This document shows, in pieces, positions 3,003 to 60,907 of a stretch of 64,000 bases of DNA. This DNA comes from an uncultured Bacteroidota bacterium. GTDB taxonomy: Bacteria > Bacteroidota > Bacteroidia > Flavobacteriales > Flavobacteriaceae. The number at the start of each line of letters is the position of its first letter. The stretch's first letter is position 1. The translations under genes were made by a program, and so were the position numbers. Location of the stretch: NCBI GenBank assembly GCA_902622575.1, contig CACNQJ010000002.1, positions 100,482-164,481 on the forward strand. The letters are read 5' to 3'. The notes under the pieces are model-generated. The model saw only the letters and a list, made by a program, of their open reading frames with translations. It ran no database searches and was not told the origin of the DNA.

Positions 3003-3009
3003 TGTAATT

Positions 3010-4773: not shown

Positions 4774-4844
4774 AAGTGATATTTTTTAAATTTTAGTAGT
4801 AATTAATAATTAAATAATTGTAGCAATAGATTCCTAAAAATGAA

Positions 4845-4852
4845 TATTTTTG
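4845..4852 (+). promoter_or_regulatory. Bacteroidota -7 element (TAnnTTTG) upstream of flavodoxin
   Basis: TATTTTTG matches the Bacteroidota sigma-ABfr -7 consensus TAnnTTTG exactly and lies 61 nt before the flavodoxin ATG in the 140-nt divergent region. No TTG sits at the ideal ~19-nt spacing (one occurs at 4818-4820), so this is a candidate only. Confidence 0.4.
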
Positions 4853-4913
4853 CACATATTATTTCAAATACTTTAACAAATTTAGTACATAAAACAATCA
4901 AAACTTTACATTA

Positions 4914-5435
4914 ATGAGTAAAAATAATAAGGTCGCACTTATTTATGGATCTGATACTGGTTCGACAGAATATATATCTGAAATTATAGCTGAAAAATTA
5001 GCGTTAGAAAATATCGATTTCAAAGACGTAGTTACAATGAAACCACCTGACTTTGCTGAATATGATATTATGATTATGGGTATACCTACATGGTATATAG
5101 GTGAACTACAAACTGACTGGGATGATTTTTTTGAGGAATTTAAAACAATAGATTTTACAGGTAAAAAAGTAGCGTTTTACGGTTTGGGAGATCAGTATGG
5201 GTATCCTGATAACTTCCAAGATGGGTTGGGAATTTTAGCTGAGGTAGTATTGGATAATGGAGGAGAATTATATGGATATTGGCCAAATGAAGGTTATGAT
5301 TTTAATGAATCTCTTGGTGTTGCTCCAAATGGAATGTTTTATGGTTTGGCCTTGGATGAAGATAATCAAAGAGATGAATCAAACGACAGAATTGAAAAAT
5401 GGGTTAATCAAATAAAAGAAGAATTGCAATTTTAA
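4914..5435 (+). CDS. fldA: Long-chain flavodoxin
   Basis: A 173-residue cytoplasmic FMN protein. The phosphate-binding loop YGSDTGSTE is at residues 11-19, the first FMN loop GIPTWYIGELQTDWDDF follows near 56-72, and the second loop GLGDQYGYPDNFQDG near 95-109. The ~20-residue insertion that defines the long-chain class is present. Flavodoxins shuttle electrons to reductases and replace ferredoxin under iron limitation. It is monocistronic, 140 nt from a divergent flavoprotein gene; a shared regulatory region is possible but no operator is recognisable. Confidence 0.95.
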   Translation: MSKNNKVALIYGSDTGSTEYISEIIAEKLALENIDFKDVVTMKPPDFAEYDIMIMGIPTWYIGELQTDWDDFFEEFKTIDFTGKKVAFYGLGDQYGYPDNFQDGLGILAEVVLDNGGELYGYWPNEGYDFNESLGVAPNGMFYGLALDEDNQRDESNDRIEKWVNQIKEELQF

Positions 5436-5503
5436 ATATTCCCTTTTCTTTTGGATTAAATTCGTTAAGTTATTATCTTGAATTTTAATTAAACAATAAT
5501 ATT

Positions 5504-6007
5504 ATGAACAAAAATTTAATTTTATTTATATCCCTAATGTTTATAGGATGCAATAATCCATCTGAAAAACATTTAGAGCTAGAAGCTGCTCAAACCTCTT
5601 TGGAGAGTAATCTGGAAATGTATACAATGGTTTGGAATGAAGTATTTAATAACAGAAATCTAGATATGATTAATGAGGAATATTTCGATAAAGATGTGGT
5701 TGCAGTGGCAACATCAGCTGGTGATGTTACAGGTCTTGAAAACTTCAAAGCTTACTACGGAAACTATCTTACTGGATTTTCAGATGCAGAATTAATTTTT
5801 GTAGATCTTTTCGGACAAGGTGATAAAATGGTAAAACATTGGAGGTTTAAAGGCACCCATGATGGAGAATTCTTTGGTGTTCCACCTACAAATAAGAAAG
5901 TAGATGTTACAGGAACAACTCTAATCAAAATGAAAGATGGTAAAATCGTTGCAGAACAAGACATTATGGACTTTCTAAGTTTTTACACTCAACTCGGATT
6001 AATGTAG
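5504..6007 (+). CDS. SnoaL-like / ester cyclase-type lipoprotein
   Basis: A 167-residue protein with a lipoprotein signal ([16 protein letters not shown], lipid Cys16) followed by one NTF2-like fold of the SnoaL ester-cyclase type: WNEVFNNRNLDMINEEYFDKDVV, GLENFKAYYGNYLTGFSDAEL, a KHWRFKGTHDGEFFGVPPTNK segment and GTTLIKMKDGKIVAEQDIMD. Such proteins bind or turn over small hydrophobic molecules, but many are of unknown function. A strong intrinsic terminator follows the stop by 25 nt, so the transcript ends here. Substrate cannot be inferred. Confidence 0.8.
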   Translation: MNKNLILFISLMFIGCNNPSEKHLELEAAQTSLESNLEMYTMVWNEVFNNRNLDMINEEYFDKDVVAVATSAGDVTGLENFKAYYGNYLTGFSDAELIFVDLFGQGDKMVKHWRFKGTHDGEFFGVPPTNKKVDVTGTTLIKMKDGKIVAEQDIMDFLSFYTQLGLM

Positions 6008-6022
6008 AAATCTATTTTTTTG

Positions 6023-6517
6023 TTACAAATCGAGCCCCTTATTTTTTTGGGGCTTTTTTGTTCTCCATCTATAAAAAAATATGAAAAAAATAACTATAAA
6101 ATTAATTCCCAGTACGTAAGGGTTAGACCAAGGCACACCATCAAATCTGTATTCAGATATTGGCCATAATATTGGAGTAGGAAAAAACTTTATACTATGT
6201 GTAAAAAAGTCTACTACTATATGAATTGGCCACGCAAGCATGGGCCAAGCAAAATCTTTATTAATAACATAAGCAATTCCAATGAAAATTAAAGCAGTTA
6301 TTAAACTGTGAGATATATCATAAAGGTCATAAACCCAGTATGGTAGCTCCTCGATATTAGGTCTACCAAAGCTTAAGTCATTAAACAGAAAAATGTAAAT
6401 AAAATATATACCAAATGAAAATAAATCAGGTATAGCCCCAAATAAAAAAGAAAACCACCTATACTTTCTGTATCCAAATAGTCCTTTTCCGTACAATGCA
6501 TGACTTAGAGTATCCAT
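6023..6517 (-). CDS. YdjM/DUF457-like integral membrane protein
   Basis: A 164-residue protein with about four hydrophobic segments. The N-terminal DTLSHALYG, a central DLYDISHSL and WPIHIVVDFFTHS carry spaced His/Asp residues of the PF04307 type (membrane-bound metal-dependent hydrolase-like). The activity of this family is not well established. Its last ten residues (ending NKGLDL) are encoded across the terminator hairpin of the convergent upstream gene. It is divergent from dgkA with 32 nt between starts. Confidence 0.72.
   Translation of the reverse strand: MDTLSHALYGKGLFGYRKYRWFSFLFGAIPDLFSFGIYFIYIFLFNDLSFGRPNIEELPYWVYDLYDISHSLITALIFIGIAYVINKDFAWPMLAWPIHIVVDFFTHSIKFFPTPILWPISEYRFDGVPWSNPYVLGINFIVIFFIFFYRWRTKKPQKNKGLDL
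6033..6059 (+). terminator. Intrinsic terminator after the SnoaL-like gene
   Basis: AGCCCC (6033-6038) pairs with GGGGCT (6049-6054) around a 10-nt loop and is followed by a T tract. The reverse strand has no T tract after the stem, so it acts on plus-strand transcripts. It lies inside the last codons of the convergent YdjM-like gene. Confidence 0.85.
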
Positions 6518-6549
6518 AATTATTATAAATTTAATGAAGTTTATTTGCT

Positions 6550-6915
6550 ATGAAATTCATAATTAGAAGGATCAAAGGTATTATAATTGCGATTAATGGT
6601 ATGTTTTATCTTTTAAAAAATGAAGACTCAATTAAAGTACAAACCCTGGTTTGTATTTTTTTTACTTTCCTTGGCTATTATTTTGAAATAAAAAAGTCAG
6701 AGTGGATTATTCAAATATTACTTATTGGATTTGTTTTGACTACTGAGGCATTAAATACAGTTGCTGAAAAAATATGTGATTTTATTAATCCTAAATATGA
6801 TGAGAAAATTAAAATAATCAAAGATATCTCTGCAGGAGCTGTTTCTTTTGCTGTAATAAGTTCACTAATCATTCTTTTGATTATTTATTTACCATACATA
6901 TCTTATTTTTTATAA
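6550..6915 (+). CDS. dgkA: Diacylglycerol kinase / undecaprenol kinase family (DgkA)
   Basis: A 121-residue protein with three predicted membrane helices and the family signature TTEALNTVAEKICD followed by IKDISAGAV. The Glu and Asn of the first block and the KD..AGAV block form the active site of prokaryotic DgkA. It phosphorylates diacylglycerol or undecaprenol at the inner membrane; which substrate is used cannot be told from sequence. Length is normal. It is separated from its neighbours by 32 nt (divergent) and 69 nt (downstream) and seems to be monocistronic. Confidence 0.92.
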   Translation: MKFIIRRIKGIIIAINGMFYLLKNEDSIKVQTLVCIFFTFLGYYFEIKKSEWIIQILLIGFVLTTEALNTVAEKICDFINPKYDEKIKIIKDISAGAVSFAVISSLIILLIIYLPYISYFL

Positions 6916-6984
6916 TATTTAGAATTACTTTAAAAGTTTTTAATATTGTATTTTTAAATTAATGATTTGAAATAAATGTGATCT

Positions 6985-9648
6985 ATGAAAAAAAATCTTT
7001 ATAGTTTTTTAACAATAATTTTTGCTGTCTCTATTGTGTACTCACAAGAAAAAGAGCAAGCAAATTATGATTTGGCATATAAATTTTCACCCAAGAGTAT
7101 TGCTAAGTTAGTGCACTCAACCTCTGTGAGGCCACATTGGCTAAAAAAAGGTAATAAATTTTGGTATCAGTATAAGACAACAAATGGTTCAAATTATTAT
7201 TTAGTAGATGCTGACAAGAAAACAAAAATTCCATTATTTGATAATGATAAAATGGCCGCATGGTTAAGTGAAATCACAAGAGACCCATATGATGGACAGC
7301 ATTTACCAAGATTTAACTTTAAGTTTGTAAAAGATGAAACTGCAATTCAGTTTTACATTACCTCAAATGAGCTTGTCACTACAAATGATGATGTAGATTT
7401 GGATAGTTTTAAAGGTGAAATTGATGATTTATCAATATCCAAACTAAAAGAGAATGGTTACAACACTGTGAACGATATTATTTATGAAGAGATAAATGTA
7501 CTTATTGAAAAAACTAACATAAGCAGAGAATCTTTATCTAAAATTATTGATTATGTTATTGATAATAAGGACAAAAAAAATAACAGTAAAAGAAAAAGTA
7601 AAAAAGTATATCACCTTGAATATAAATTAGGATCTAATGGACTTAAGATAATTGGTAATAAAAGAAAGCCCATTAAAAAATGGAATAGATGGGCAAACAT
7701 TTCACCCGATAGTACTATAGTATTGTATTCAAAAAAATTTAATTTGTACTGGATGGATAAAGAGAATTTCTTGAAAGTAATTAAAGATGAAAAAGATTCT
7801 ACTATAGTAGAAAACCAATGGACAAAAGATGGTGTTCAAGACAATAGCTATGGTGGTTATGGATATGGTATGGACAATGAAGATATTGAAAAGAAAAAAA
7901 ATGATCGATATCCAGTTAGGGGGTACTGGTCATCTGATTCAAAAAAGTTCGTCTTCGTGAAAACAGATAGATCAAAAATAAAGGATTTATGGGTTATTAA
8001 TTCTGTGGGGAAAAAAAGACCAACGCTTGAAACATACAAATATCATATGGCTGGTGAAGAAGCAGAATACACCCATGAAATATTAATTTTTGATATAAAA
8101 TCAAAAGATGTTAAAAAAGTTCAAATAGATTCTGCAAAGCAAAAAAGAGTTTCATACATCAGTGGGATTAATATTTATAGTAAGCCTAGAAAACCATCAA
8201 GTATTGATGATGAGTTTAAACCAACATTATTGCTCTCAGATAAGGGGAAAATATATTTTAGTATCACAAGTAGGGATAGAAAAAAAGTAGATATATGCAG
8301 AGCAGATATTGAAAGTGGTGAGATGGAAGTTTTAATTGAAGAAAGGATGAACACCTATATCGAAACTAGACCATTATATTTAATAAAAAATGAAATGGAA
8401 ATGATTCATTGGTCCGAAAGGGATGGATGGGCGCATTTTTACAGATATAATAATCAAGGTAAATTATTAAACAGAATTACAAGAGGCTCCTTTCATAGTG
8501 ATTACATTAGACATTATGATGAAAAATCAAACAATCTTTTCTTTACTGCCCATGGTGTGAATAATCAGATTGATCCTTATTATGAACATACTTATAAAGT
8601 TTCACTTAATGGAGGAGTTCCTAAATTATTAAATAAAGGTAATTTCAATACGATGACTTACCCATCAGATAATCATAGATATTTTATTAATAATTTTTCA
8701 AGAGTTAACACCACACCTGAATCACACTTAATTAATTCAGATGGGACCGTAATTATGAAATTAGAAAAAGCGGATTTAAGTGCGTTATTCGAATCTGGTT
8801 ATCAATTTCCAGAAACATTTAAAGCTAAAGCAGATGATGGTATTACCGATTTGTATGGTGTAATATACAAGCCTTTTGATTTTGATGAAAATAAAAAATA
8901 CCCACTATTAGAATATGTATATCCAGGTCCTCAAACAGAATCAGTTAATAAGTCATTTTCAGTTAGAATGGATAGGTTAGATAGAATGGCTCAGTTAGGT
9001 TTTATAGTAATTACACTTGGTAATAGAGGAGGTCATCCAGACAGATCTAAGTGGTATCATAATTATGGCTATGGAAATTTAAGAGATTATGGACTAGCTG
9101 ATAAAAAATATGTTGCTCAGCAACTTGCTAACAGACATAGTTTTATTGATATTGATAGAGTTGGAATTTATGGCCATAGTGGTGGAGGTTTTATGTCAAC
9201 TGCTGCCATTTTAGTTTATCCAGATTTCTTTAAAGTTGCGTACTCACAAGCTGGTAATCATGATAACTCAATGTATAATAGTTGGTGGAGTGAAACACAT
9301 CACGGTATAATGGAAGAAACAGATGATGATGGTAATATTAAGTATAAGTATGACATTGATAAAAACCAATCTCTAGCAAAAAATTTGAAAGGTCATTTAT
9401 ATTTAGTTACTGGTGATATGGATAACAATGTGCATCCTGGTGCCACTTTAAGAATGGCAAATGCTTTAATCAAAGCCAATAAGAAATTTGATTTTATGAT
9501 CTTACCGAGTCAAAGACATGGTTTTGGGAATATGTCAGAATATAATTTTTGGCTCAGAGCAAACCATTTCTCAAAATACTTTTTGGGTGATGAAAATAAT
9601 TCAGTTGATATGTTGGAGATTAATCGTGATATTCCACAATCAAAATAA
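6985..9648 (+). CDS. S9 family peptidase, dipeptidyl peptidase IV type (secreted)
   Basis: An 887-residue exported serine peptidase. A signal peptide ends near IVYSQ. The N-terminal ~620 residues form the DPP IV beta-propeller region and include an unusual charged, Lys-rich stretch (about 185-215) that looks like an insertion. The C-terminal alpha/beta hydrolase has the triad S732 in GHSGGG, D813 in GDMDNNV and H845 in RHGFG. DPP IV enzymes release X-Pro or X-Ala dipeptides from peptides. It is first of three closely spaced genes (14 and 15 nt gaps) with an esterase and a sulfatase. A second paralog is at 16412-18574. Confidence 0.92.
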   Translation: MKKNLYSFLTIIFAVSIVYSQEKEQANYDLAYKFSPKSIAKLVHSTSVRPHWLKKGNKFWYQYKTTNGSNYYLVDADKKTKIPLFDNDKMAAWLSEITRDPYDGQHLPRFNFKFVKDETAIQFYITSNELVTTNDDVDLDSFKGEIDDLSISKLKENGYNTVNDIIYEEINVLIEKTNISRESLSKIIDYVIDNKDKKNNSKRKSKKVYHLEYKLGSNGLKIIGNKRKPIKKWNRWANISPDSTIVLYSKKFNLYWMDKENFLKVIKDEKDSTIVENQWTKDGVQDNSYGGYGYGMDNEDIEKKKNDRYPVRGYWSSDSKKFVFVKTDRSKIKDLWVINSVGKKRPTLETYKYHMAGEEAEYTHEILIFDIKSKDVKKVQIDSAKQKRVSYISGINIYSKPRKPSSIDDEFKPTLLLSDKGKIYFSITSRDRKKVDICRADIESGEMEVLIEERMNTYIETRPLYLIKNEMEMIHWSERDGWAHFYRYNNQGKLLNRITRGSFHSDYIRHYDEKSNNLFFTAHGVNNQIDPYYEHTYKVSLNGGVPKLLNKGNFNTMTYPSDNHRYFINNFSRVNTTPESHLINSDGTVIMKLEKADLSALFESGYQFPETFKAKADDGITDLYGVIYKPFDFDENKKYPLLEYVYPGPQTESVNKSFSVRMDRLDRMAQLGFIVITLGNRGGHPDRSKWYHNYGYGNLRDYGLADKKYVAQQLANRHSFIDIDRVGIYGHSGGGFMSTAAILVYPDFFKVAYSQAGNHDNSMYNSWWSETHHGIMEETDDDGNIKYKYDIDKNQSLAKNLKGHLYLVTGDMDNNVHPGATLRMANALIKANKKFDFMILPSQRHGFGNMSEYNFWLRANHFSKYFLGDENNSVDMLEINRDIPQSK

Positions 9649-47310: not shown

Positions 47311-48360
47311 GTGAGACTAATCTTAATCATCTTAGTATTTTTTGCCTACAACCACTCAAGATCTCAAGAAGGAGTTCCCATATATTTTGATTATCTAACT
47401 GAAAATTATTATTTAGTGCATCCATCTATGGCAGGAGTAAATTTAGTTGGAGGAAAAATTAGATCTACAATTAGAAAACAGTGGTTTGATCAAGTAGAAG
47501 CACCAAATTTACAAACTCTTACAGCAGATTTAAGGCTTTCCGAAAGGTCCGGATTAGGCTTAACATTATTTAATGATGAGAATGGATATCATTCACAGAA
47601 AGGTGTTTACTTAACTTATGCTCATCACATCAACTTTAATGATGATATAGTATTGAGTAAAAGACCTTACCCATCAAAATATGATGAAATTGATCAACTA
47701 TCATTTGGAATTAGTGTAGGAGGGATACAAAACTCCCTCGATCAAACTACTTTCGATAATTATGATTTTGATCCTTTAATTTCAAATTTAATGGAAAATA
47801 CCAGCTATTTTAATATCGATGTTGGCATGTCGTATGTAAATTCTAAATACTATGCACATTTGACAGTGAAAAATTTGCTTTTTGCACCTGATGAGTGGTA
47901 TGGTGACATTAATGAAAACGTCAATAATGAGACCAGAAATTTTAAAAGGTTTGTTGCTTCATTAGGCTATGTATTCTATACTGATACGCCATGGTCATTC
48001 GAACCATCCAGCTTATTTCAATATTCTGATCTAACATTTGAAAAATCAATTGATTTTAATTTTAAGGCATATTATAAATTGAATTATGGAAGGATTTGGG
48101 CTGGTTTATCATTTAGAAACAGTTTAGAGGGAGCAGAATACTATCAAAAATTTGATGATATAACAGCTGGCGAAAAAATACCAGTTGAACAAAACTTACA
48201 ACTTATAACACCACTCTTTGGAATAGATTACAAAGATTTTGTTTTTTCATACAACTATTCATATCAATTTGGAGATGTAAATTTTAGCTCTGGTGGTTTT
48301 CATCAAATAACAATTGGATTCAATTTCCTTCGTGGTTCTATTGAATGTGATTGTTTCTAA
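47311..48360 (+). CDS. PorP/SprF family type IX secretion membrane protein
   Basis: A 349-residue protein beginning at GTG, with a signal peptide ending NHSRSQ. The mature N-terminus reads GVPIYFDYLTENYYLVHPSMAGV, with IRKQWFDQVEAPNLQTL nearby, a typical PorP/SprF start, followed by a barrel ending in ITIGFNFL. SprF-like proteins are needed for secretion or surface retention of cargo with type B C-terminal domains, and the adjacent convergent genes encode two such cargo proteins. This supports a dedicated partner. The gene overlaps the 2344-residue cargo gene by 4 nt at the stop codons. Confidence 0.92.
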   Translation: MRLILIILVFFAYNHSRSQEGVPIYFDYLTENYYLVHPSMAGVNLVGGKIRSTIRKQWFDQVEAPNLQTLTADLRLSERSGLGLTLFNDENGYHSQKGVYLTYAHHINFNDDIVLSKRPYPSKYDEIDQLSFGISVGGIQNSLDQTTFDNYDFDPLISNLMENTSYFNIDVGMSYVNSKYYAHLTVKNLLFAPDEWYGDINENVNNETRNFKRFVASLGYVFYTDTPWSFEPSSLFQYSDLTFEKSIDFNFKAYYKLNYGRIWAGLSFRNSLEGAEYYQKFDDITAGEKIPVEQNLQLITPLFGIDYKDFVFSYNYSYQFGDVNFSSGGFHQITIGFNFLRGSIECDCF

Positions 48361-51300
48361 TTGCTACCTCCGCCACTTCTTTTACCCCTTATAAGGCTAA
48401 AGTGTCCTTTAAATTCTCTTCCATCTTCTAGGAATACTCTGAACCAGTAGTCTGTTTGTGGCATTGCTCTTCCAAGATAAGTTCCATCCCATCCTTCATC
48501 TAATGGGTCCAGTTCTTTTATTAGTTTTCCATATCTATCAAAGATATATACTCGGCTATTTGGTTGGAAGTCTTCTCTTATTCCAAGTATTTTCCATTCA
48601 TCATTTATTCCATCTTCATTTGGTGTGAAGAACTTTTTATATCCAATAACTGATACTTCTATTTGAGCAATACCGCAAAGGTTTTTATCTCTTATGTATA
48701 TTGTGTGGATACCGGGTCTTACATTTTCAAACAGGGGATCATTTTGATAGGGTCCACTAAGATCGTCAATAGCAAACTCATAGTCTCCAATTCCAAGGTT
48801 AGCAGTATCAATCGTTATTGTATTGTTATTATCACTTGTTAGATCTTCAACTGTAATGTCGTCAAGTGTTACTGTTGCTATTTCTGATTCTTCAACTTCT
48901 ATGCTTAATGTTCTAGAACAATTTGTTCCATCTTTTGTTGTTGCAGTTACATGATAAGTTCCACCTTCACCGATTAGTATATGGTCGTTATTAGTGGATG
49001 TAGGATCATTAGGTGCAAATGCTGAAGTAGTTCCATTTAAATTGGTGTGTTCCCAAGTGTAGGTGTAATCATCTTTTGCAGATTCAACACCAATTCTTCT
49101 TGGAGGCAAGTTCAAACAAACAATTGCATCATCATCGACAGTAAATTCTGGAAGGGGATTAACAACAAAATCAATAGTAGTGGTAACATTACATGTTGGA
49201 AACAGTGGATTTGTTATTGTTGCAATAATTTGATCTCCATCTTTAGCTTGGAATGTATTTGCAAATATCCACGGCGCTGAATTGTATTCAAAAGTGAATT
49301 CAAAATCATTGAAATCTTGAGCAGGAATTGTTCCAGTTGAATCGGTTAATAGCAATGTTTTTATATTATCCATTATAAAAATTGACTCCCCATCAGTATC
49401 ACTTCCGGTATCAATATCATCACAAAGATTTTTTTCTACGCTATATGCCAATGGTGTCTGATAGATTTTATATTCAAATGTTCCCTCACTGTAAGGTTTT
49501 GGAGTTGCATTTCCATTAATATTTGTAAGTCTTAATGTTATAATTTGATTGCTTGTTTCAAATGGGTTTGGTATTGTTGCACTAGAGATTGTAGCACCTG
49601 TATTGTCTACATAAGTATACTCAAAGTCATATAATGTTCTATCTTGTTCAATCCCAGTTATAGGATCTGTTAAAAGTTGAGTTACAGCTATTTCAGGATC
49701 AAATGTTGCAGTGTATTCAAATGGGGGTTTTTCATCACATTTTTCCTGAATGTCAACATCATATGCGATAGCTCTTTTTTCAATATATAGAGTTGCAACA
49801 TGATCCAATCCAACACATGATGTTTGTATTAGGGTTAAACTTGTGTTTTTAATGTAAACCCATATTTCTTGTTCCCATCTGTTTAGCGCTGGGTTAAAAG
49901 AAAACCCATCGTTAACGTATGTAGTAAAATCCTTTGTTTTATCAATTTCTTCAGCTGTTTGATAAGCTGCATCATCTTCACTTGGATAAAAAACAAATTC
50001 AGTACCAGGATCTAAAAATGATGGTTGAGCAATTTTTAATGCAGCTTCAATGTCTGTAAAAATAGATTTGTCGAAAGTTTCAAATCCATCTTGACTTTGA
50101 CCTTGTAAATCTGGATCGCTTTCTCCTAGATATGATTCTAATTTTACAAAATTTGCAGGTATTTGACTAATCCCAACCGTCAATTCAATTTCAGCTGTTC
50201 TGAAACATGGATTTCCAACACTTGGTTTTGTATATATTATTACATCAATTGTTTCAACATTTGATCCACCAGTTACAGGGCTTGTATAGCTAGTTGGGTC
50301 AGAGATTAAAGTGCCAGTATTATCATAGTATTCAAAAGTAAAATCTATAGGGGCTCCCGTTATTAAATTTTGCTCCTCTTTCGTTAAATTAAAATCAGGG
50401 TTGTCACACTGTTCAACTTTCCAAAGAGCATTTTTAATAACGGGTAGAGGATTTATTGTAATATCGAATGCTTTTCCATATTTATTTCCACCTGGATATG
50501 ATCCAGAAACCTTTTCTATATTATAAAATATTTCCTGAGTTGTAGTACCCGCCAGATAAAGACTAGGGTCTGATTGATAATTCACAGGATCATTAATAGC
50601 AGCAGTAGCAGTTTTGTTTTGTGCGCCAGACAGAGAGGTGTAATATGTAATTTGAAAATCAGTATCACTTTGATTGTCATAATTATTAGGATCAGTTATT
50701 GTATTTCCTGATCTTAAATCTACATCTCTTAATGTTAAATCAAAGATTGAAATGGTATCATCATCGGCACCAGATGTTGTGTCATCACACAAAACTATGT
50801 CTTCAGCTGGATAGGTAACAGGAATTGGTATCACAACTAATTTAAAACTTGTTGTAGCATCAACACAGCCGGTTGTTTTGTTTTCTACTCGAACAAATAT
50901 TTCAGTTTCATTTATCGTCCAGTGATTTTTTAATTTATCATCTGCTGTTGTATAATCAGGTTTATCTGGATTGGTGTAAGGAAATGTTATTGCTTTTGTA
51001 ACATCACCTGATTGTGCATCGGTTTTATCCTCATAAAATGTAACATCAAAATTTGTTGGATCGGTCTCGTTTGCTAAAATTGCATCATCAATATCTAATG
51101 CTATAAAATCTAAATCTGTTAATACTCCATTATTTGCATCTCCATCATCATCATTGTCGAATAATTCAAGATCTGGAATTGTCACTGGAACGGGAGGAGG
51201 GTTTACTGTATGAGTGAATGTGGTTTCACATGCAACTCCATCTGTTGTTACAATAACTTTATAGGTTGTTGTTTGAGTTGGGTTTACTGTAATTGTTGTT

Positions 51301-54300
51301 GTAGTAGGATTGCCTGCAACATTAACAAATGTTCCGGGGTTTGCAGGATCTTCTTCAAACCACTCCAGAGTTGTAGTGCCACTAAATTCATAAAGTGGTC
51401 TTGATTGATAATTTGCAGGAAAATCATTTAATAATTTTCCTGAGCCATTTAAGTTAAAATGGCCGTAGTCTTCACTGCCATCATCTGTATCATCTATATC
51501 TGCTCTACCTAATACCCCTGTTGATGGATTAACCCAATTGATATCATAATCATTTGGTTCGCCATTTTGCCACAAATTCCATGTAGGATCAAGATCACTT
51601 CCATCTAACCATTTCCATCCTTGACAAAAGTCATCTGGTGTACCATCATTGTTGCTATCACAAGTTTTACCTACTATTAAGCTTCGATTTTGTTTAAGTC
51701 CTAACCAGAAGGGTGTATTATCATAGCCATTTGCAACAATCAAATTCCAAACTGCGTCATGTTCAGCTAAAGAATTGATTACATACAGAGATGCTCCAAT
51801 TCCATAATTTGGCAATCGAGCTTCAGTATCTGTAAATGTTCTTTGGTTAGGGTCAACAAAATAATAAGAGGTCCTTGAAAGACCAGTATTTGGATCAGTA
51901 TACGTATAGTCTCCAATTAAATCAAGAGTTGGATTCGTAAGCTCAAAATCAAGTGCTGTTTGAGGCACATTATTTACAGTAAGATCTACATCTTCAGCTG
52001 GGCATGTTTCAGGAAGGGATGCTGTTATATCTGGATCTGATAATCTGACACTTGTCGTAGCTCTTCCATTACTGTAACATCCTGTAGCAGGATCATAAAA
52101 TTGCAGATAATAAAATTGCCCATCAACTAATAGATCTGTATTATCCACACGAGTTCCAACAGAGCTATCATTAATATCATAGTCATCGTAGATCAAAAGA
52201 TCATATTTATTTGGATTACTTTTTGCTTCCAAATCTCCTACAGTTGGTGAGTCTGTAAAACAAAAGGTTTGTACAGGATTTGACAGGGGGTCTGCAGGGA
52301 GTGGAGTAGCGGTGAATGTAATCTCATTTGATGGGCTACCACAAAGGTATTGATCATCAAAAACTAAGACTCTGTATAGACCATCCATATCACTTTTAAC
52401 TATATCTGTTAAGGTTAATTCATTTGTTGTTGCACCAGAAAATGCAGCTCCTAAGGTTGTGGATCCATCAATAATATCTATCCATGTTGTTCCGCTATCT
52501 TGACTTAATTGCCATTGATAATAAACAGGAGCAGTTTGAGGAATAATTTGCGCATCAAAACTAATTACAGTACCTGAACATGCACTTTGAGGTGAAGTTA
52601 GTGGATTTTGAAATTGAATCTGGTCACCAGGTTTTTGAAAGTAATATTCTCCAGCAGAATTTTTGTTTGGATCAATGGAATATCCACCTGCATCTTTATG
52701 AGAAATCACTCTTCCTCTATCATCAATGTCACCACTAGCAGTAGTAATTGGAGATGTACCAAGCATACCATCATTATCGGGGTCACCAACAAAACCAGCA
52801 TAATCAAAACCAGCCTCTGTAAGATCAAAGCAATCATCACCATCACTATCATCGTCATAATAATCATATAAATTATCAGGATTGGTAGTTGAATTTTTAT
52901 CAGAATTTACTCCATAATCAACAATCTCAATTTTACCTCTAAAATCAGATTGTGTCGTGGTTTTATTTGAGTAAGAAGTTATTTTAATACCATCTACGTC
53001 ATATGCTAAAAATTCGTAAGTAGGATTAGCGGTATCATTCTTGTATCTAAATCTAATTTGATTACTTGTATATTGCGTAATTCCCTCCTCCCAACTATCT
53101 ATATTAGCATTAATATCAATTATAAGTTCATCATTTGGATCCAACAATGTTATATTTTTTTTAGAATCTAATACCTCTATAGTAAAGTAATCGCCAGCTG
53201 TTTTTGTTTCGGATTCGCCAGTAAATCTATAATTCAAATTTTCAGCTGTAGTATTTATCTCAAATGATATGCTACCTGAGGTTGACGCTTCTAGAGACAT
53301 ACTTATTTCTCCATTTGCAGATCCAGTTACAGTACTGCTGGTGAGAGAAGTAGGATCTTTTTTTATATCTGTACTAGAATTTATTGTGATTGGATTTCCA
53401 GAAGCATCTTTAAAAGCAGGTGTGTTAATCGTTGACAAATCAAGAGTCAAATTACCCAATGATTCAACTGAATTTAAAATACCATCATTATCAAAATCCA
53501 AATCCAAATTGTCTATTATTCCATCCTCGTCATAATCTTCAGGACAGATACTTACTTTAATTTCACCAGAATAAGTATCAAATGCAAGGCAATTAATTAA
53601 ACCTCTTAATCTGTATGTCCCATCAACTTCAGGTACATAAGGACTTTGTGTAGCATCTCCAGATGAAGTTGTTGGAGCATCAATCCAAGAGGATGTAGAA
53701 TCATCATATATTTCCCAAACCCAAGCATCAAAAAGATCAGAGTTTTGAATACCAAGCTCAATATTTGAACTAACAAAGTTTCCTGAATCATCCTCAATTA
53801 TACAATATCCTAATGAAGCTAGAGTAGGTTGAATTATAGGATCTGGAGGAATAGAAAACCCAGAATAAAAACCTCCAATTGCAGCTGATCCACTGGTCCC
53901 ATAATAATTTGCATATAAATCCTCATCGGACGTTATTTTAACATTCCCCTGTAAACTTGGTAAATTATAAGCATGATAATTTGCCTTTCCAATAACTTGT
54001 TCAGGTGCTGGTAAAGCAATATTTCCTGAACCATCAACTACTGTAACTGTAGCAGATGTTTTAGTAACAATCGATACACCACCTGCATAATTAGTGTTTC
54101 CAACCTGCTCAATGTTTGGAATATTATCCACATCATCTTGTGCATCTTCATTTAGTGGCGGAACAAAAAACATACCTTGATTGGCTGGGTTAGTACCTGC
54201 TCCACTATTTCCAGCTCCAGCAACACCTTGATAAGAAAATAGTTTAAAATCTTGATTTTGTGTTCTTACATACATAGTCCCGCCTGAGCTTGCTGTGCTA

Positions 54301-55391
54301 TAATTAGTATTGGCAATTTGCAGGAACTCCCCTGCATCTAGTACCGTTGTTGGTGTTGTTGACGAACCAATAAATATTTCAGTATCATCTTGTGCTGCAA
54401 CAACTAAAGGAGTTTCCATGTTGCTTGAGTTTGCACCGGCACCTCTAACAAAAATATATTCGTGTCCGACTCTTTCAATAGCAACAATTTGGTCAATACC
54501 ATGATCATGTCCACCACTTGATACAAATGTTCCACTAGCTGACCCAGAATTAACAACAAGTGGTTTTGAAGAATCTTTGTTGCCCAGAACATCTACAGAT
54601 TTAATGAGGGCTCCTATTAATCCAAATCTCTTATTTGTAGAGTTATTATTACTAATTCCAAAATCTTGGGCAATTATTAAACTCTGATGCTTTTGAAGGG
54701 TTTTATTAATTTTTGTTCCACCATTGTAATTAAATGAACTAGAGGTACCACCAAGTGTTAAACTACTAGCACTAGCATTTGGTAATTCTATTTCTATTCT
54801 GGTGTTATCTTCTGTTGCCATTACAGAGAAAAAATTTAATGTAGCTGAACTTGCTGAATTATTACCGTTATGTGCATTTCCTTGAGTTCCATTTAACATC
54901 ATACCTGTTCTAAATTCAGTTCCTAGTGCAGCCAGTCCTTTACTTGTGAAAGCACCTGCTTGTGCCCCTGCATTATATCTTATTGAAACATATATTGGAC
55001 AATCAGCCTCAACTAAAAATCCTGCGTTAAGAGTAAGAATTCCGGATGAATTAGCTGTATTATTTGGATTTACAAATAATTGGTTATTTAATCGATCATT
55101 TACCGATCCTGATCCATTATTAATTGTATATCTAATAGGATTATCATTTTGAAGTGGATTAGTACTAATATCACTAAAATTAATAACCCTTCCTGTGCTT
55201 AATTCGGTTATTGTACCATTTACAGGATTTGTGCTTGGTGTAGATAAATATAAATATTGATCTCGTGGTAATGAATTTCCTTCTAAATCAACAGTTAGTG
55301 GAGGGACATAATGTATTTTACTGATCTGAGAAAAACCCAGAAAGCTAAAAAAGAAAAAAAGAAAAAATAATTTGAAACTTTTCAAACTCAC
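48357..55391 (-). CDS. Giant T9SS type B cargo surface protein (2344 aa) with C-type-lectin-like module
   Basis: GTG start; signal peptide ends LGFSQ. About residues 40-520 resemble an IgGFc-binding-like N-terminal region. At about 615-650 is a DEDGIIDNLDLDFDNDG thrombospondin-type-3-like calcium stretch. Repeated Ig-like segments start near 940. About 1170-1335 is a C-type-lectin-like module with FWLGLKQN, WKWLDGSD, WQNGEPNDYD and GHFN. More tandem domains follow. The last ~90 residues (from ~2254, FFTPNEDGINDEWK) are the gliding-motility-associated sorting domain, with GKRSGGGSN at the end. Residues about 2074-2336 are encoded by DNA identical to the neighbouring gene. Probable adhesin exported by T9SS. 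Confidence 0.9.
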   Translation of the reverse strand: MSLKSFKLFFLFFFFSFLGFSQISKIHYVPPLTVDLEGNSLPRDQYLYLSTPSTNPVNGTITELSTGRVINFSDISTNPLQNDNPIRYTINNGSGSVNDRLNNQLFVNPNNTANSSGILTLNAGFLVEADCPIYVSIRYNAGAQAGAFTSKGLAALGTEFRTGMMLNGTQGNAHNGNNSASSATLNFFSVMATEDNTRIEIELPNASASSLTLGGTSSSFNYNGGTKINKTLQKHQSLIIAQDFGISNNNSTNKRFGLIGALIKSVDVLGNKDSSKPLVVNSGSASGTFVSSGGHDHGIDQIVAIERVGHEYIFVRGAGANSSNMETPLVVAAQDDTEIFIGSSTTPTTVLDAGEFLQIANTNYSTASSGGTMYVRTQNQDFKLFSYQGVAGAGNSGAGTNPANQGMFFVPPLNEDAQDDVDNIPNIEQVGNTNYAGGVSIVTKTSATVTVVDGSGNIALPAPEQVIGKANYHAYNLPSLQGNVKITSDEDLYANYYGTSGSAAIGGFYSGFSIPPDPIIQPTLASLGYCIIEDDSGNFVSSNIELGIQNSDLFDAWVWEIYDDSTSSWIDAPTTSSGDATQSPYVPEVDGTYRLRGLINCLAFDTYSGEIKVSICPEDYDEDGIIDNLDLDFDNDGILNSVESLGNLTLDLSTINTPAFKDASGNPITINSSTDIKKDPTSLTSSTVTGSANGEISMSLEASTSGSISFEINTTAENLNYRFTGESETKTAGDYFTIEVLDSKKNITLLDPNDELIIDINANIDSWEEGITQYTSNQIRFRYKNDTANPTYEFLAYDVDGIKITSYSNKTTTQSDFRGKIEIVDYGVNSDKNSTTNPDNLYDYYDDDSDGDDCFDLTEAGFDYAGFVGDPDNDGMLGTSPITTASGDIDDRGRVISHKDAGGYSIDPNKNSAGEYYFQKPGDQIQFQNPLTSPQSACSGTVISFDAQIIPQTAPVYYQWQLSQDSGTTWIDIIDGSTTLGAAFSGATTNELTLTDIVKSDMDGLYRVLVFDDQYLCGSPSNEITFTATPLPADPLSNPVQTFCFTDSPTVGDLEAKSNPNKYDLLIYDDYDINDSSVGTRVDNTDLLVDGQFYYLQFYDPATGCYSNGRATTSVRLSDPDITASLPETCPAEDVDLTVNNVPQTALDFELTNPTLDLIGDYTYTDPNTGLSRTSYYFVDPNQRTFTDTEARLPNYGIGASLYVINSLAEHDAVWNLIVANGYDNTPFWLGLKQNRSLIVGKTCDSNNDGTPDDFCQGWKWLDGSDLDPTWNLWQNGEPNDYDINWVNPSTGVLGRADIDDTDDGSEDYGHFNLNGSGKLLNDFPANYQSRPLYEFSGTTTLEWFEEDPANPGTFVNVAGNPTTTTITVNPTQTTTYKVIVTTDGVACETTFTHTVNPPPVPVTIPDLELFDNDDDGDANNGVLTDLDFIALDIDDAILANETDPTNFDVTFYEDKTDAQSGDVTKAITFPYTNPDKPDYTTADDKLKNHWTINETEIFVRVENKTTGCVDATTSFKLVVIPIPVTYPAEDIVLCDDTTSGADDDTISIFDLTLRDVDLRSGNTITDPNNYDNQSDTDFQITYYTSLSGAQNKTATAAINDPVNYQSDPSLYLAGTTTQEIFYNIEKVSGSYPGGNKYGKAFDITINPLPVIKNALWKVEQCDNPDFNLTKEEQNLITGAPIDFTFEYYDNTGTLISDPTSYTSPVTGGSNVETIDVIIYTKPSVGNPCFRTAEIELTVGISQIPANFVKLESYLGESDPDLQGQSQDGFETFDKSIFTDIEAALKIAQPSFLDPGTEFVFYPSEDDAAYQTAEEIDKTKDFTTYVNDGFSFNPALNRWEQEIWVYIKNTSLTLIQTSCVGLDHVATLYIEKRAIAYDVDIQEKCDEKPPFEYTATFDPEIAVTQLLTDPITGIEQDRTLYDFEYTYVDNTGATISSATIPNPFETSNQIITLRLTNINGNATPKPYSEGTFEYKIYQTPLAYSVEKNLCDDIDTGSDTDGESIFIMDNIKTLLLTDSTGTIPAQDFNDFEFTFEYNSAPWIFANTFQAKDGDQIIATITNPLFPTCNVTTTIDFVVNPLPEFTVDDDAIVCLNLPPRRIGVESAKDDYTYTWEHTNLNGTTSAFAPNDPTSTNNDHILIGEGGTYHVTATTKDGTNCSRTLSIEVEESEIATVTLDDITVEDLTSDNNNTITIDTANLGIGDYEFAIDDLSGPYQNDPLFENVRPGIHTIYIRDKNLCGIAQIEVSVIGYKKFFTPNEDGINDEWKILGIREDFQPNSRVYIFDRYGKLIKELDPLDEGWDGTYLGRAMPQTDYWFRVFLEDGREFKGHFSLIRGKRSGGGSN
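48385..49171 (-). repeat. 787-bp perfect direct repeat, copy A (3' end of the 2344-aa gene)
   Basis: Read base by base against 55461-56247, the two stretches are the same with no mismatch. Flanks differ at both ends (A versus C at the low end, C versus A at the high end). It encodes the last three domains before the final few residues: an Ig-like domain, a domain ending CGIAQIEVSVIG, and the sorting domain. Confidence 0.97.
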
Positions 55392-55447
55392 TTTTTACAG
55401 ATACACACTAATTTAGTGATATCTTTTTACTTCAAACATTTGATAGT

Positions 55448-58400
55448 TTAATTATTTCGCCCCCTTATAAGGCTAAAGTGTCCTTTAAATTCTCTTCCAT
55501 CTTCTAGGAATACTCTGAACCAGTAGTCTGTTTGTGGCATTGCTCTTCCAAGATAAGTTCCATCCCATCCTTCATCTAATGGGTCCAGTTCTTTTATTAG
55601 TTTTCCATATCTATCAAAGATATATACTCGGCTATTTGGTTGGAAGTCTTCTCTTATTCCAAGTATTTTCCATTCATCATTTATTCCATCTTCATTTGGT
55701 GTGAAGAACTTTTTATATCCAATAACTGATACTTCTATTTGAGCAATACCGCAAAGGTTTTTATCTCTTATGTATATTGTGTGGATACCGGGTCTTACAT
55801 TTTCAAACAGGGGATCATTTTGATAGGGTCCACTAAGATCGTCAATAGCAAACTCATAGTCTCCAATTCCAAGGTTAGCAGTATCAATCGTTATTGTATT
55901 GTTATTATCACTTGTTAGATCTTCAACTGTAATGTCGTCAAGTGTTACTGTTGCTATTTCTGATTCTTCAACTTCTATGCTTAATGTTCTAGAACAATTT
56001 GTTCCATCTTTTGTTGTTGCAGTTACATGATAAGTTCCACCTTCACCGATTAGTATATGGTCGTTATTAGTGGATGTAGGATCATTAGGTGCAAATGCTG
56101 AAGTAGTTCCATTTAAATTGGTGTGTTCCCAAGTGTAGGTGTAATCATCTTTTGCAGATTCAACACCAATTCTTCTTGGAGGCAAGTTCAAACAAACAAT
56201 TGCATCATCATCGACAGTAAATTCTGGAAGGGGATTAACAACAAAATATAACTCAGCTGTTGCAGGACAACTTCTATTTAATTTATTTTCAATTACTACA
56301 TCCACTTTACCTAATGTTGTATTAATGTTGAATGGATTTCTAAGTTTGTTATCTGTAGATGTTAGTATATTTCCAGCTTCGTCGAAATAGGTAAAAATAA
56401 CATCATAATCTGCCAATGTTTGGTTTGGACCTAATAAATCGTCTGTGAGGGTGCTTGTATCAAATTCATCAAAGCCATCGTCGTCATCAAGACCATCATC
56501 GCCATCACAATGAGGGTCTATAAAGATTTGTGTGATATTAGTGATTGGATCTAATGTAAAATTTTTAAAGTTAGTTGTACTAATTTCTGGGGTATCGTCA
56601 ACAATAAAATCGACAAAAGTAGTATCAGATGCACGAGCAGGAGCATCTTGATTCGTTGCATTTGTATATATTGGAATATTCTCAACAACAATCCTGACTT
56701 GTTTGGTTTCTGTATTAAACAGTGGTATAATATTAGCTTTAGGAATATCAATGTACGTACCCGGATTGACTGGATCTTCGTAAGAGTAAGAAATACTAAG
56801 GCCACCAATACTCTGTGTTAAACCTGTAGACGGGTCGGTTAAAAGTTGATTAATAAGGGTGCTTGTATCAAATTCAAAAATCCCATCTTGGGAGTCATCT
56901 CCTTTACTACCATCACATTCACTAGGAATGGTTACACCATAAGCAACAGGTTTCGGTTCAACATACAATTCTCCAACCAACTCTAGGCCTTCACATACTT
57001 CTTTTGTTAGATCGTCTCTGGTAACTAATGCCCAAATCTCTTGTTTGTTCGGACTAGCCATCGTGTAAGAAAAACCAGGAGCTGTAATATCAATTTCATT
57101 CTGTAACTTTTGAGCTTCATTAGATGAAGGGAAATATCTAATACTTAGACTTCCTGATCCAGTGGATGAAAAACTAGGCAAAATACTTTTTAATTGAGTA
57201 TCAATAGCATTAAAAGGAGTTACATCCCATGTTTCAATTAAGTTAGTAGTTCCTGGTGGTTGGGTTGAGTTTTTTGAAAACCTAAAATTATTATCATCAA
57301 CAAAAGTCTTGGGAATTTGACTAACACCTACCTTTAAAACTATCTTAGATTCACTAATACAGCCTTTATCAGAAATTACTTTAACAAATACCTCATCATT
57401 TAAATTAACTGGATAATTTTCTTTATCATTAACTGGATTGGTAAATGTAGCATCTGTGTAGTATTCAAAATCTTCGTTGGCATAATTAGTTGATATTAGA
57501 TCTTGATATTTAGTTAAATCAAAATTTGTTTGTCCAACAGTTGCTCCATCGTCGCATTGCTCTAACTCAATTGAAGAAACAACAACGGGTTTTGGGCATA
57601 TACTCAAAGTAAATGACTTTGAAGTATCAAAACAAAGAGTTAATTTATTTTGAACTCTAATAAATATATCTTCAAGAGGATTTGTATTTGTATAGTCATC
57701 TGGATCTGTAATTCCAGGATCATTTATATCTTCAGCTGAGGCAGAACTTAAGTGATACGTAACAATAAAATCAGCAGGAGGTTGCGTTGCTCCAAGGATA
57801 TTAGATTCCTGAATGGTTAAGTCAATTCCAGAATTTCTACCATCAATATCAGTTCCATAAGAAGTGTCATCACAAATCTCTATAATTGGAGCTGTATTTA
57901 CAATTGGAAGATTAGGTTCAACATTAAGTTTAGTTGTACCATCAGAAAAATCATAACAAGCATATTCATCAGTATAAAATTTAACTCTAAAAAGATTGTC
58001 TTTCATTGCAAGGGTAGTAGAAGAAATTATTAGTTTCCTAGATTTTACTCCACTATAGGTTGTATCGTCAACAAGATCCACCCAAGTTGTTCCACCATCA
58101 TCGCTCAGTTGCCACTGAAATACAGGGTTTGGAATTGTATTTAGAGTTACTTCAAATTCTGCAGGAGCACCTTCATAACATGCAATTGTTGATACAGGAG
58201 GAATGTCTATTGTGGGAGCAGGGCTATATGATTGAAAAAAATAAACACCACTAGAATTTTTTATGGGCTCTAAAGTATAATTATAATCAGGGTCAACAAT
58301 CCTTCCTTTATCATCAACAGTTCCATCAACAATGTTTGGGTTTGGATCTAATCCATAAATACCATCATCATCTTGCTCTAAATATCCAGCTTCAACTACA

Positions 58401-60907
58401 TCAAAACAACCATCTCCATCACTGTCAAGTTGCATCAAATCATTGACCGTATCACCATCACTATCCAATTCATAATCATACAATTCAAACAAAGGAACAA
58501 ATACAGAATTACTTGTTGTATTTGTATTTTGGTGGGTTATTGTTATTCCTTCAACTTCAAATGCAGTAAACTGATACGTATTTGTTGTTGATGCTGGATT
58601 AAATTTGAATTTAATTTCACCTGCAGTATACTCAGAAATTCCATACTCAAAAACATCGTCAGTCTCTGAGTAAACCAATAAATTATCATCTGGGTCTAAA
58701 AGTGTTATGCTCTCATCACTATTTTTTGTCTCAATTATAAAAGTTTCTCCAGTTATTACGGCAGTAAAAACTGAAGGGTCATCAGATATTCTTACATTTG
58801 CCACTGTTGAAAAATCCATTTTATATTGAATAACTTCATTAGTACCAGCTTTAACCTGCGTTTCGAACCTTGAGTTATTGTATCCAGTAAATGTGTGAGG
58901 TGCTGTTGGATCTGGAGTTATATTCCCATTCGATGGATCATATATCCCCTTAATTACATTTCCTGTAATTAAATTATTTATTGTTGTCGAATTAGGAAAA
59001 CCAGGTGAAGGGTCAATGGTGACCGATGGAGTATTTTGGTTGGTAAAATCAATATTTCCCTTGCCTCTTGATTCAAATGAGTTTAGTATTCCATCATTAT
59101 CTATATCCAAATCAATATTATCTAAAACTCCGTCATCATCAAAATCACCAGCACAAATATTGACCCTTACACTATTGGAGAAATACTCTTGACTTTTACA
59201 CAACAATACACCCTTTAGCCTGTAACGACCTTCTTGTGATGGCACGTACTTATCATTAGTATTAGTGCCTGGAGCACCTATCCACGTACTGGAGGTTTCA
59301 TCAAATATTTGCCATTCAAGGCCACCATCAAATGCACTTCCATTTTTTGCTGTAAATTCTACATTTGATTTTATATTACCACTACTATCAAATTTGATAC
59401 AAGGTCCTAAACTACTAAAAGTAGCAGATGCTCCAACTTGTGGATTAGTTTGAAAACCAGAATAAAACCCCCCAGTTGTTGATGCATTATCAAAATTATA
59501 GTATGAAATATATAGTTCATCATTTCCTTCTACTAAAACGTCACCCTCAAGATCATCAACAACGTAGGCAACATAGTCGGTTCCTGGAACATTTAATGCA
59601 CCTGGTAGAGAAACTGCACCATTAACATCAGTAATTGTTAAGGTTGCTGCATTTTTTGTGACTATAGAAACAACACCACCTGACATATCTTTACCAACTT
59701 TGTTAATTTCTGCAATTTTGTTTACACCTCCTTTTGCGCCACAGTCAAGAGGAGGAACAAAAATCATACTTTGCCTAGCGGCACGTGCATTGCCACCTGT
59801 CCAGACATCTCCAATAAATTGATATGCAAAGACTTTGTCATCAGACTTTCCTGTTTTAACATGCATTGTCCCATTGCTATTGTATTTGTCTCCCTCAATG
59901 ATTATGAATTCCCCCTCGTTTATTACGATTGGATTTCCGCTTCCATCTGTATATGATGTACCATTGATGTTTAATGTAGTACTGTTTTGATCAGCAATTA
60001 GCAAAACATTTTCCCAATCATCATCGCCGCCACCTCTTATAAAAATATACTCGTTTCCTGTTTTCTCTGATGCAACAATTTGATCAATTCCATAATCATA
60101 GCCTTGGGTTGGCCCACTTGGATCACCACTTTGGGAAACTGAACCAATTCCTCCAGTATTAACTACAACAGGCTTATCTGATTCAATTAATGTTCCTATG
60201 GTACCATTTCTACCACTCTGTGATGATACAACGTAAGACTCACCCTTATTTAAAGTTTCGATAATGGGATATGTAACTGGAGTATCAAAATCAACATAAT
60301 CTCCATTTTGATCGATAGGTGGAGTTATAGTTATTTGAGTATTGTTTTCAGTAGCCATAACAGATCCAAAATTTAAATAAGAAGTACCATTTGTTTGAGG
60401 ACCTGCAGTTCTAAATTTAGTACCCAGAGCTGCATCTCCCTTGGAAACCAATGCACCAGCATGTACATTTCTGTAACCGCCGCCACTGGGATAATTAGTA
60501 TAGTTAGCATTGAACCTTACGGAGACATAAATTTCCCTATCAGCTTCAATGATAAAACCTGCATCGCTTTGTACTTTCTGAGTATTAGATCTTTCAATAA
60601 AAAGATGTCCGAAGGTACCATCCGGGCCTGTTTTTACTTCAACTGATTGACTATTGTCAACTGTACCCTGATCAAAAATCAGTTGACTACTTCCCTTTTT
60701 AATTGTGTAATTAACGGGTGTTAAAGATGGTGTTGAAATGTAAAAATACATATCCTCAGGTGGATTGAAGTTAATAGCTGCGTTACTGTTATAAATTTCT
60801 GTGGTCAGTGGAGGTATATAATGAGTTTTACTGAGCTGACTGTAACTGTCATGAAATGAAATAAAACACAATAAAAAAACGACTAATATTTTGTAGAGAG
60901 ACCTCAA
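55448..60907 (-). CDS. Giant T9SS type B cargo surface protein (1819 aa)
   Basis: Begins at TTG (a stop lies a few codons upstream and no ATG is in between); signal peptide ends SYSQ. It is paralogous to the 2344-residue neighbour: an N-terminal IgGFc-binding-like region with FRTAGPQT and PPLDCGAKGG, a calcium-type DFDDDGVLDNIDLDIDNDG stretch at about 586-620, then tandem Ig-like domains without the C-type-lectin-like module. Residues about 1554-1816 are encoded by DNA identical to the neighbour, including the sorting domain starting at ~1734. It ends in GRNN. Located 56 nt upstream of the other giant gene, on the same strand. Confidence 0.9.
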   Translation of the reverse strand: MRSLYKILVVFLLCFISFHDSYSQLSKTHYIPPLTTEIYNSNAAINFNPPEDMYFYISTPSLTPVNYTIKKGSSQLIFDQGTVDNSQSVEVKTGPDGTFGHLFIERSNTQKVQSDAGFIIEADREIYVSVRFNANYTNYPSGGGYRNVHAGALVSKGDAALGTKFRTAGPQTNGTSYLNFGSVMATENNTQITITPPIDQNGDYVDFDTPVTYPIIETLNKGESYVVSSQSGRNGTIGTLIESDKPVVVNTGGIGSVSQSGDPSGPTQGYDYGIDQIVASEKTGNEYIFIRGGGDDDWENVLLIADQNSTTLNINGTSYTDGSGNPIVINEGEFIIIEGDKYNSNGTMHVKTGKSDDKVFAYQFIGDVWTGGNARAARQSMIFVPPLDCGAKGGVNKIAEINKVGKDMSGGVVSIVTKNAATLTITDVNGAVSLPGALNVPGTDYVAYVVDDLEGDVLVEGNDELYISYYNFDNASTTGGFYSGFQTNPQVGASATFSSLGPCIKFDSSGNIKSNVEFTAKNGSAFDGGLEWQIFDETSSTWIGAPGTNTNDKYVPSQEGRYRLKGVLLCKSQEYFSNSVRVNICAGDFDDDGVLDNIDLDIDNDGILNSFESRGKGNIDFTNQNTPSVTIDPSPGFPNSTTINNLITGNVIKGIYDPSNGNITPDPTAPHTFTGYNNSRFETQVKAGTNEVIQYKMDFSTVANVRISDDPSVFTAVITGETFIIETKNSDESITLLDPDDNLLVYSETDDVFEYGISEYTAGEIKFKFNPASTTNTYQFTAFEVEGITITHQNTNTTSNSVFVPLFELYDYELDSDGDTVNDLMQLDSDGDGCFDVVEAGYLEQDDDGIYGLDPNPNIVDGTVDDKGRIVDPDYNYTLEPIKNSSGVYFFQSYSPAPTIDIPPVSTIACYEGAPAEFEVTLNTIPNPVFQWQLSDDGGTTWVDLVDDTTYSGVKSRKLIISSTTLAMKDNLFRVKFYTDEYACYDFSDGTTKLNVEPNLPIVNTAPIIEICDDTSYGTDIDGRNSGIDLTIQESNILGATQPPADFIVTYHLSSASAEDINDPGITDPDDYTNTNPLEDIFIRVQNKLTLCFDTSKSFTLSICPKPVVVSSIELEQCDDGATVGQTNFDLTKYQDLISTNYANEDFEYYTDATFTNPVNDKENYPVNLNDEVFVKVISDKGCISESKIVLKVGVSQIPKTFVDDNNFRFSKNSTQPPGTTNLIETWDVTPFNAIDTQLKSILPSFSSTGSGSLSIRYFPSSNEAQKLQNEIDITAPGFSYTMASPNKQEIWALVTRDDLTKEVCEGLELVGELYVEPKPVAYGVTIPSECDGSKGDDSQDGIFEFDTSTLINQLLTDPSTGLTQSIGGLSISYSYEDPVNPGTYIDIPKANIIPLFNTETKQVRIVVENIPIYTNATNQDAPARASDTTFVDFIVDDTPEISTTNFKNFTLDPITNITQIFIDPHCDGDDGLDDDDGFDEFDTSTLTDDLLGPNQTLADYDVIFTYFDEAGNILTSTDNKLRNPFNINTTLGKVDVVIENKLNRSCPATAELYFVVNPLPEFTVDDDAIVCLNLPPRRIGVESAKDDYTYTWEHTNLNGTTSAFAPNDPTSTNNDHILIGEGGTYHVTATTKDGTNCSRTLSIEVEESEIATVTLDDITVEDLTSDNNNTITIDTANLGIGDYEFAIDDLSGPYQNDPLFENVRPGIHTIYIRDKNLCGIAQIEVSVIGYKKFFTPNEDGINDEWKILGIREDFQPNSRVYIFDRYGKLIKELDPLDEGWDGTYLGRAMPQTDYWFRVFLEDGREFKGHFSLIRGRNN
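55461..56247 (-). repeat. 787-bp perfect direct repeat, copy B (3' end of the 1819-aa gene)
   Basis: Second copy of the sequence at 48385-49171, in the same orientation and 7076 bp away. The identity begins at the CCCC run just inside the stop and ends at the T at 56247. Perfect identity including silent positions points to recent gene conversion or duplication. Confidence 0.97.

Follow-up and report, generated by a model that had tools for sequence, protein, structure and literature searches.

Two neighbouring giant cargo genes of a marine flavobacterium share an identical 3' end that is probably maintained by recurrent gene conversion

Two type B cargo genes ending in the same 787 bases

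The window analysed here, a 64,000-nucleotide stretch of contig CACNQJ010000002.1 from the genome of a marine flavobacterium (G000; 1.27 Mb in 32 contigs, 82% completeness), contains two neighbouring paralogous genes, labelled A and B (W_A and W_B for the window copies), which share an identical 787-base stretch at their 3' ends. Both are intact open frames on the minus strand, gene B lying upstream of gene A with 56 nucleotides (nt) between the frames, and the open reading frame (ORF) listing gives TTG as the start codon of gene B. The products are giant predicted surface proteins and paralogous type B cargo of the type IX secretion system (T9SS): each carries at its C-terminus the TIGR04131 (CHU_C) sorting domain by which such cargo is recognised, and the two have differing heads (Table 1).

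Table 1. Features of the A/B locus (positions in the window)
Feature	Position	Strand	Evidence
Gene A, T9SS type B cargo, 2344 residues	48357..55391	-	ORF; PF17517 and TIGR04131 above cut-off
Gene B, T9SS type B cargo, 1819 residues	55448..60907	-	ORF; PF17517 and TIGR04131 above cut-off
Repeat copy 1, 3' end of gene A (residues A 2075-2336)	48385..49171	-	787/787 identical to copy 2
Repeat copy 2, 3' end of gene B (residues B 1555-1816)	55461..56247	-	787/787 identical to copy 1
Type B sorting domain of A, residues 2249-2335	48387..48647	-	TIGR04131, 113.3 bits, cut-off 35
Type B sorting domain of B, residues 1729-1815	55463..55723	-	TIGR04131, 113.7 bits, cut-off 35
IgGFc_binding-like head of A, residues 154-498	53898..54932	-	Pfam PF17517, E 6.4e-30
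IgGFc_binding-like head of B, residues 154-446	59570..60448	-	Pfam PF17517, E 1.5e-28
C-type-lectin-like stretch in A	51342..51944	-	phmmer E 3.5e-5 to mannose receptor carbohydrate-recognition domain
PorP/SprF-family protein, convergent with A, frames overlapping by 4 bases	47311..48360	+	TIGR03519, 170.7 bits, above cut-off

The two copies lie 7076 bases apart and formed a single family at that spacing in our repeat search of the window, which listed the first 300 nt of the block. They encode 262 residues common to A and B, the sorting domain included. As a sequence-only reading of the window had stated, the copies agree at every position and the identity ends sharply at both borders; in ungapped 100-base steps, the flanks were 16-37% identical on the low side (3 kb examined) and 20-37% identical on the high side (1 kb), and the first mismatched residues stand immediately before FVVNPLP and immediately after SLIRG. 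The same reading had described the upstream regions as diverged paralogs, in agreement with our alignment, in which A and B just upstream of the block could be aligned at 26-48% amino acid (aa) and 41-61% nt identity per 40-column step. The same codon was used at 100% of the shared residues in the block interior and at 17-78% in the upstream steps. The G+C content of the block (0.356) was close to that of the remainder of the two genes (0.344 and 0.348), giving no sign of a foreign origin, and this candidate was set aside.

The block had also been said to cover the last three domains of the proteins. The TIGR04131 sorting domain does lie within it, but Pfam detected the sorting domain alone in the tail region, and the structure model of the protein end was of low confidence, with a mean predicted local distance difference test (pLDDT) score of 65. 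The border falls at a strand end in that model (model residue 93); a domain border at the repeat start was dropped as a candidate because the mean pLDDT is only 65.

The G000 assembly holds two exact copies of the block. A search of this 82% complete genome by DNA and protein for silent tail or cassette copies returned only the two known ones, and no sequence common to A and B on both sides of the variable part was found, only the 3' ends being shared.

Tails and heads in a sister lineage

A protein search with the tail gave 2175 matches, of which 120 were listed and 29 of these were compared with the window; among the matches listed, the other tails nearest to the window's were 91-93% identical. 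A sister lineage represented by P0003 (A-type) and P0004 (B-type) was examined at the protein level. The 262-residue blocks of these two proteins showed 0/262 differences from each other and had the same start and end residues as in the window, and each differed from both window tails at 21/262 residues. Since this lineage has its own identical block, at least one further homogenisation is required after the split. The tail of P0002 (B type) differed from the window at 18 residues and from P0003 and P0004 at 9.

Trees of 23 rows were constructed for tails and heads separately and accompanied by approximately unbiased (AU) tests. The tails of the window, the sister lineage and FRAM18_bin219, a related metagenome-assembled genome, clustered by lineage (W_A+W_B, support 99; P0003+P0004, 94), and the heads clustered by gene (W_A+P0003, 98; W_B+G001_X+P0004, 99). 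The AU tests rejected the grouping of tails by gene (W_A+P0003, p 6.9e-5; W_B+P0004+P0002, p 1.2e-5) and that of heads by genome (W_A+W_B, p 1.3e-49); a weak test of the heads of P0003+P0004 (p 0.046) pointed in the same direction. As concerted evolution would predict, likeness within a lineage thus exceeded likeness between lineages (0 versus 21/262 residues, and the AU tests), except in the G006 group described below, while the heads retained the old gene relationships.

Patches and near-identical ends in other relatives

A match to the A tail at E 0.001 or better was found in 43 of 60 genomes, G000 included, and within the genus in 9 of the 22 other genomes. Five genus relatives hold parts of both genes at the locus, namely G006, G009, G004, G007 (on two contigs) and G021 (on an odd contig); the stretches of G025 and G030 yielded no comparable pair. 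Over the ends compared, the A and B tails were 81-83% identical (aa) in G006, G009 and G007. The G006 pair contains two 40-codon steps of 98% nt and 100% aa identity (A 2295-2334 and 2455-2494), with 74-88% nt identity between the two steps and 64-76% after the second. Patchy identity tracts of this kind, expected in some pairs under concerted evolution, were thus present in G006 but not in G009. The G021 contig (C12, L042) bears an A-type fragment (3-2171) that faces the B gene (2311-7617) in inverted orientation, which suggests an inverted amplification chimera more than a true inversion.

Near-identical ends were also found in further pairs. P0021 and P0023, whose listed contigs are of equal size, were identical over about the last 900 residues except at the very end and had unlike heads. 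FRAM18_bin219 contains two pairs with ends 99.6% identical within each pair: the cargo ends of pair 1 lie on two contigs and differ by 5 mismatches in 1400 nt, with differing heads, and those of pair 2, which are in tandem, differ by 6 mismatches in 1600 nt. Between the pairs, the C-terminal domains (CTDs) were 73-74% identical. One member of pair 1 occupies the malic-enzyme/PorP locus on contig 3 and the other lies on contig 1; closely matching ends are thus present even in genes located apart from each other, which conversion would permit. The second cargo of the tandem pair (L059, 7232-11884) is broken into several overlapping frames, either by sequencing error or because the gene has decayed.

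Heads, bodies and an apparent natural fusion

Between the sister lineages (W_A/P0003, W_B/P0004 and W_B/P0002), the heads were 59-68% identical and the remainder 91%. With the B head as query, a protein search found 443 matches, of which 120 were listed; the best among those listed was P0004 at 64%. Trees of the B heads and bodies conflict: W_B clusters with G001_X in the head tree and with P0002 and P0004 in the body tree, and each alternative was rejected. In G001, the malic-enzyme gene and PorP enclose only one gene, which combines a B-type head with an A-like body. Beyond about residue 1100, the per-step identity of this body to the PorP-side genes of G005 and G010 was mostly 65-100% but fell to 46-56% around residues 1300-1500; the join lies in the body, at about residue 850-1100, and not at the tail. 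Judged from these comparisons, the G001 gene looks like a natural fusion.

The locus in the window is bordered on one side by a malic-enzyme gene followed by ruvA and on the other by the PorP/SprF-family gene converging on A. The C-type-lectin-like stretch of A (51342-51944), for which the Pfam search gave no match, is largely a gap in the alignment with B. Gene B contains an internal 62-base repeat (56448-56509 and 56856-56917, 408 bases apart, 73% identity), which probably represents duplicated domain units.

The export partner

Profile searches of G000, at its 82% completeness, matched two TIGR04131 cargos and one TIGR03519 shuttle. A PorP/SprF-family gene adjoins cargo gene A, as expected for this class, but it is convergent with A, unlike the same-strand downstream layout described for Flavobacterium johnsoniae. 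In both G006 and G009, a gldN-like gene is followed by a second PorP gene and a large gene for a presumed type B cargo, the end of which shared 32-34% identity with the A and B CTDs there; the gld and SprB names at this locus are ones that we presume. In G000 (C4:58001-75000), the next conserved gene comes directly after the gldN-like gene, without an intervening contig gap, and the second PorP and its presumed cargo are therefore missing there. Both PorP matches of FRAM18_bin219 are on contig 3 and share only 22% identity with each other. PorP identities were also calculated across genomes, but they do not serve as a test of coevolution, since shared ancestry explains the likeness.

According to the accessible text of PMC12618676, the type B cargos tested in F. 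johnsoniae need a PorP/SprF shuttle, one shuttle (Fjoh_1677) serves three orphan cargos, and a foreign shuttle handled one tested CTD at 68% CTD identity and not at 43% or 26%. The same source puts the type B export and targeting signal at 150-235 residues. SprF binds the C-terminal region of SprB, as stated in the accessible part of PMC9143113.

Explanations of the shared 3' end

Taken together, these results suggest that the identical 3' ends of A and B are probably kept alike by recurrent gene conversion, that is, by concerted evolution, which would let two heads use one PorP/SprF partner. Homologous recombination between the 3' ends would repeatedly copy the tail from one gene to the other. 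Selection for fit to one shuttle may favour such copying; matching of the tails to a shared shuttle is a plausible candidate reason for the homogenisation. The length of the 262-residue block may reflect the type B export and targeting signal. In-frame fusions of the B head to the A end through a 7076-bp deletion are predicted as a by-product. Gene conversion or ongoing recombination had already been proposed in the sequence-only reading, and the sister lineage, the head and tail trees and the G006 patches now support it well.

Several observations weigh against recurrent conversion toward a common shuttle. The neighbourhood of P0003 and P0004 rests on both proteins listing a 16167-base contig, and the groups for the AU tests were named with the pairs already in view. 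Clustering by gene is seen in the tail tree for G006, G009, G004 and G021. Both genes and one adjoining PorP are present in G009, in which the tails reach no more than 87% nt identity per 40 codons in the part compared, and in G007, in which they are 80.6% identical (aa) over about the last 160 residues. Among the relatives, the sister-lineage tails are identical, and those of G006, G009 and G007 diverge. Homogenised tails are not general among tandem relatives either, for the tandem type B genes of G031 (10 pairs), G028 (1) and G027 (1), among the genes caught by one motif to which that comparison was confined, were 48-63% identical (nt) over the last 790 bases. Because diverged tails stand beside one PorP in G009 and G007, a shared shuttle does not require tail identity, and the accessible text of PMC12618676 gives the CTDs of the F. 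johnsoniae orphans on one shuttle as only >44% identical. The count of one shuttle comes from an incomplete genome, and the second PorP near FRAM18 pair 2 itself adjoins another large gene. That adjacency, together with the 22% identity to the first PorP, led us to drop the proposal that each FRAM18 pair has its own shuttle; G009, G007 and the large-genome arrays likewise rule out a strict rule that one shuttle forces one tail. We read the diverged tails of G006, G009 and G007 as pointing to episodic homogenisation rather than to its absence in the window.

Purifying selection alone could be invoked to keep the export tails alike, since the sorting domain is conserved across relatives. The copies are identical at silent sites too, as the codon usage of the block interior shows against that upstream, so selection on the protein cannot explain the identity, and the tails differ between lineages; on the sequence data, this explanation is already refuted. 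A one-off recent duplication, in which one gene received the 3' end of the other in a single copying event without continuing exchange, would leave just the perfect identity, very sharp borders and scant outside likeness that the window displays. We nevertheless regard it as unlikely, because P0003 and P0004 have the same borders around an identical block of their own, 21/262 residues away, and because G006 contains conversion-like patches; further identical pairs with private substitutions, which would refute a single copying, are already partly seen in the sister lineage. Assembly could also create the pattern, by collapsing a repeat, merging two slightly different tails to a consensus or making a false join. 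The repeat exceeds the common short-read length, 4/15 tail matches in the genus (G000 included) are cut by a contig end, and the G021 contig resembles an inverted chimera; indeed, short-read assemblies may break or merge such genes. Against the assembly duplication that the earlier reading had named as a danger, identity of this kind recurs in relatives that were assembled separately, FRAM18 keeps its few differences apart, the borders agree between the window and P0003/P0004, and both genes are intact open frames. An artefact is thus very improbable as the source of the pattern, although a few hidden differences between the copies may exist.

The cassette switch put forward in the sequence-only reading is a further alternative: recombination within the repeat would delete 7076 bp, fuse the B head to the A end and alter the exposed part in a cell population. 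Its structural premise held, since the two copies begin in one reading phase and joining them yields a frame of 1824 residues with one terminal stop, and both the G001 gene, with its B-type head, A-like body and same neighbours, and the conflicting trees of the B heads and bodies are in its favour. However, no 7-kb deletion form of the locus was seen among the assemblies examined, the search of the 82% complete G000 turned up no silent copies, the join in G001 lies in the body, a shared 3' end alone cannot import new heads, and the deletion is one-way. The switch was therefore not borne out and seems quite unlikely; the G001 gene and the conflict between B heads and bodies fit crossovers spread across evolutionary time better than a switch within a single population.

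Beyond recurrent gene conversion at this locus, we offer as a tentative generalisation that the type B tail may act as a gene-converted shared address label, with one shuttle exporting several adhesins, the label kept identical by copying, heads traded between lineages by recombination, and cargo and shuttle coevolving as a unit in small-genome marine flavobacteria.

Comparison with known systems

On the question of how PorP/SprF shuttles and their cargo stay matched, the accessible text of PMC12618676 (2025) calls for mapping of the residues. Loci with one detected shuttle and two identical-tailed cargos are a natural test, from which tail-swap and shuttle-swap predictions follow directly. 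In the open-licence literature, we found no paper linking IgGFc binding with type IX secretion.

In F. johnsoniae, as here, there are type B CTD cargos, shuttle genes adjoin cargos, and one shuttle serves three orphans; the accessible parts of PMC12618676 and PMC9143113 differ from our case in that the orphan CTDs are only >44% identical, and they make no mention of homogenised tails. The word "recombination" appears 0 times in the main text of PMC12618676. The shared parts of rgpA, kgp and hagA of Porphyromonas gingivalis are, according to the accessible text of PMC5266723, adhesin domains of the gingipain and HagA proteins, whereas the block shared by A and B ends with the type B sorting domain and belongs to two cargos beside one PorP/SprF gene.

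The type of system is already known from Helicobacter pylori, in which the ends of surface proteins undergo concerted evolution, and our results suggest its occurrence in uncultured marine Bacteroidota. PMC4552749 cites Pride and Blaser (2002) on concerted evolution. There as here, paralogous surface proteins combine near-identical ends with a divergent functional part. In babA, babB and babC, intragenomic recombination exchanges sequence, as it probably does between A and B, and produces chimeric genes; the proteins nearly match at both the N- and the C-terminus, with phase variation added by CT repeats, according to the accessible text of PMC4552749, from which the likeness above is also taken. 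In A and B, by contrast, the sharing is confined to the 3' end, with differing heads, and the common tail is a T9SS type B export signal.

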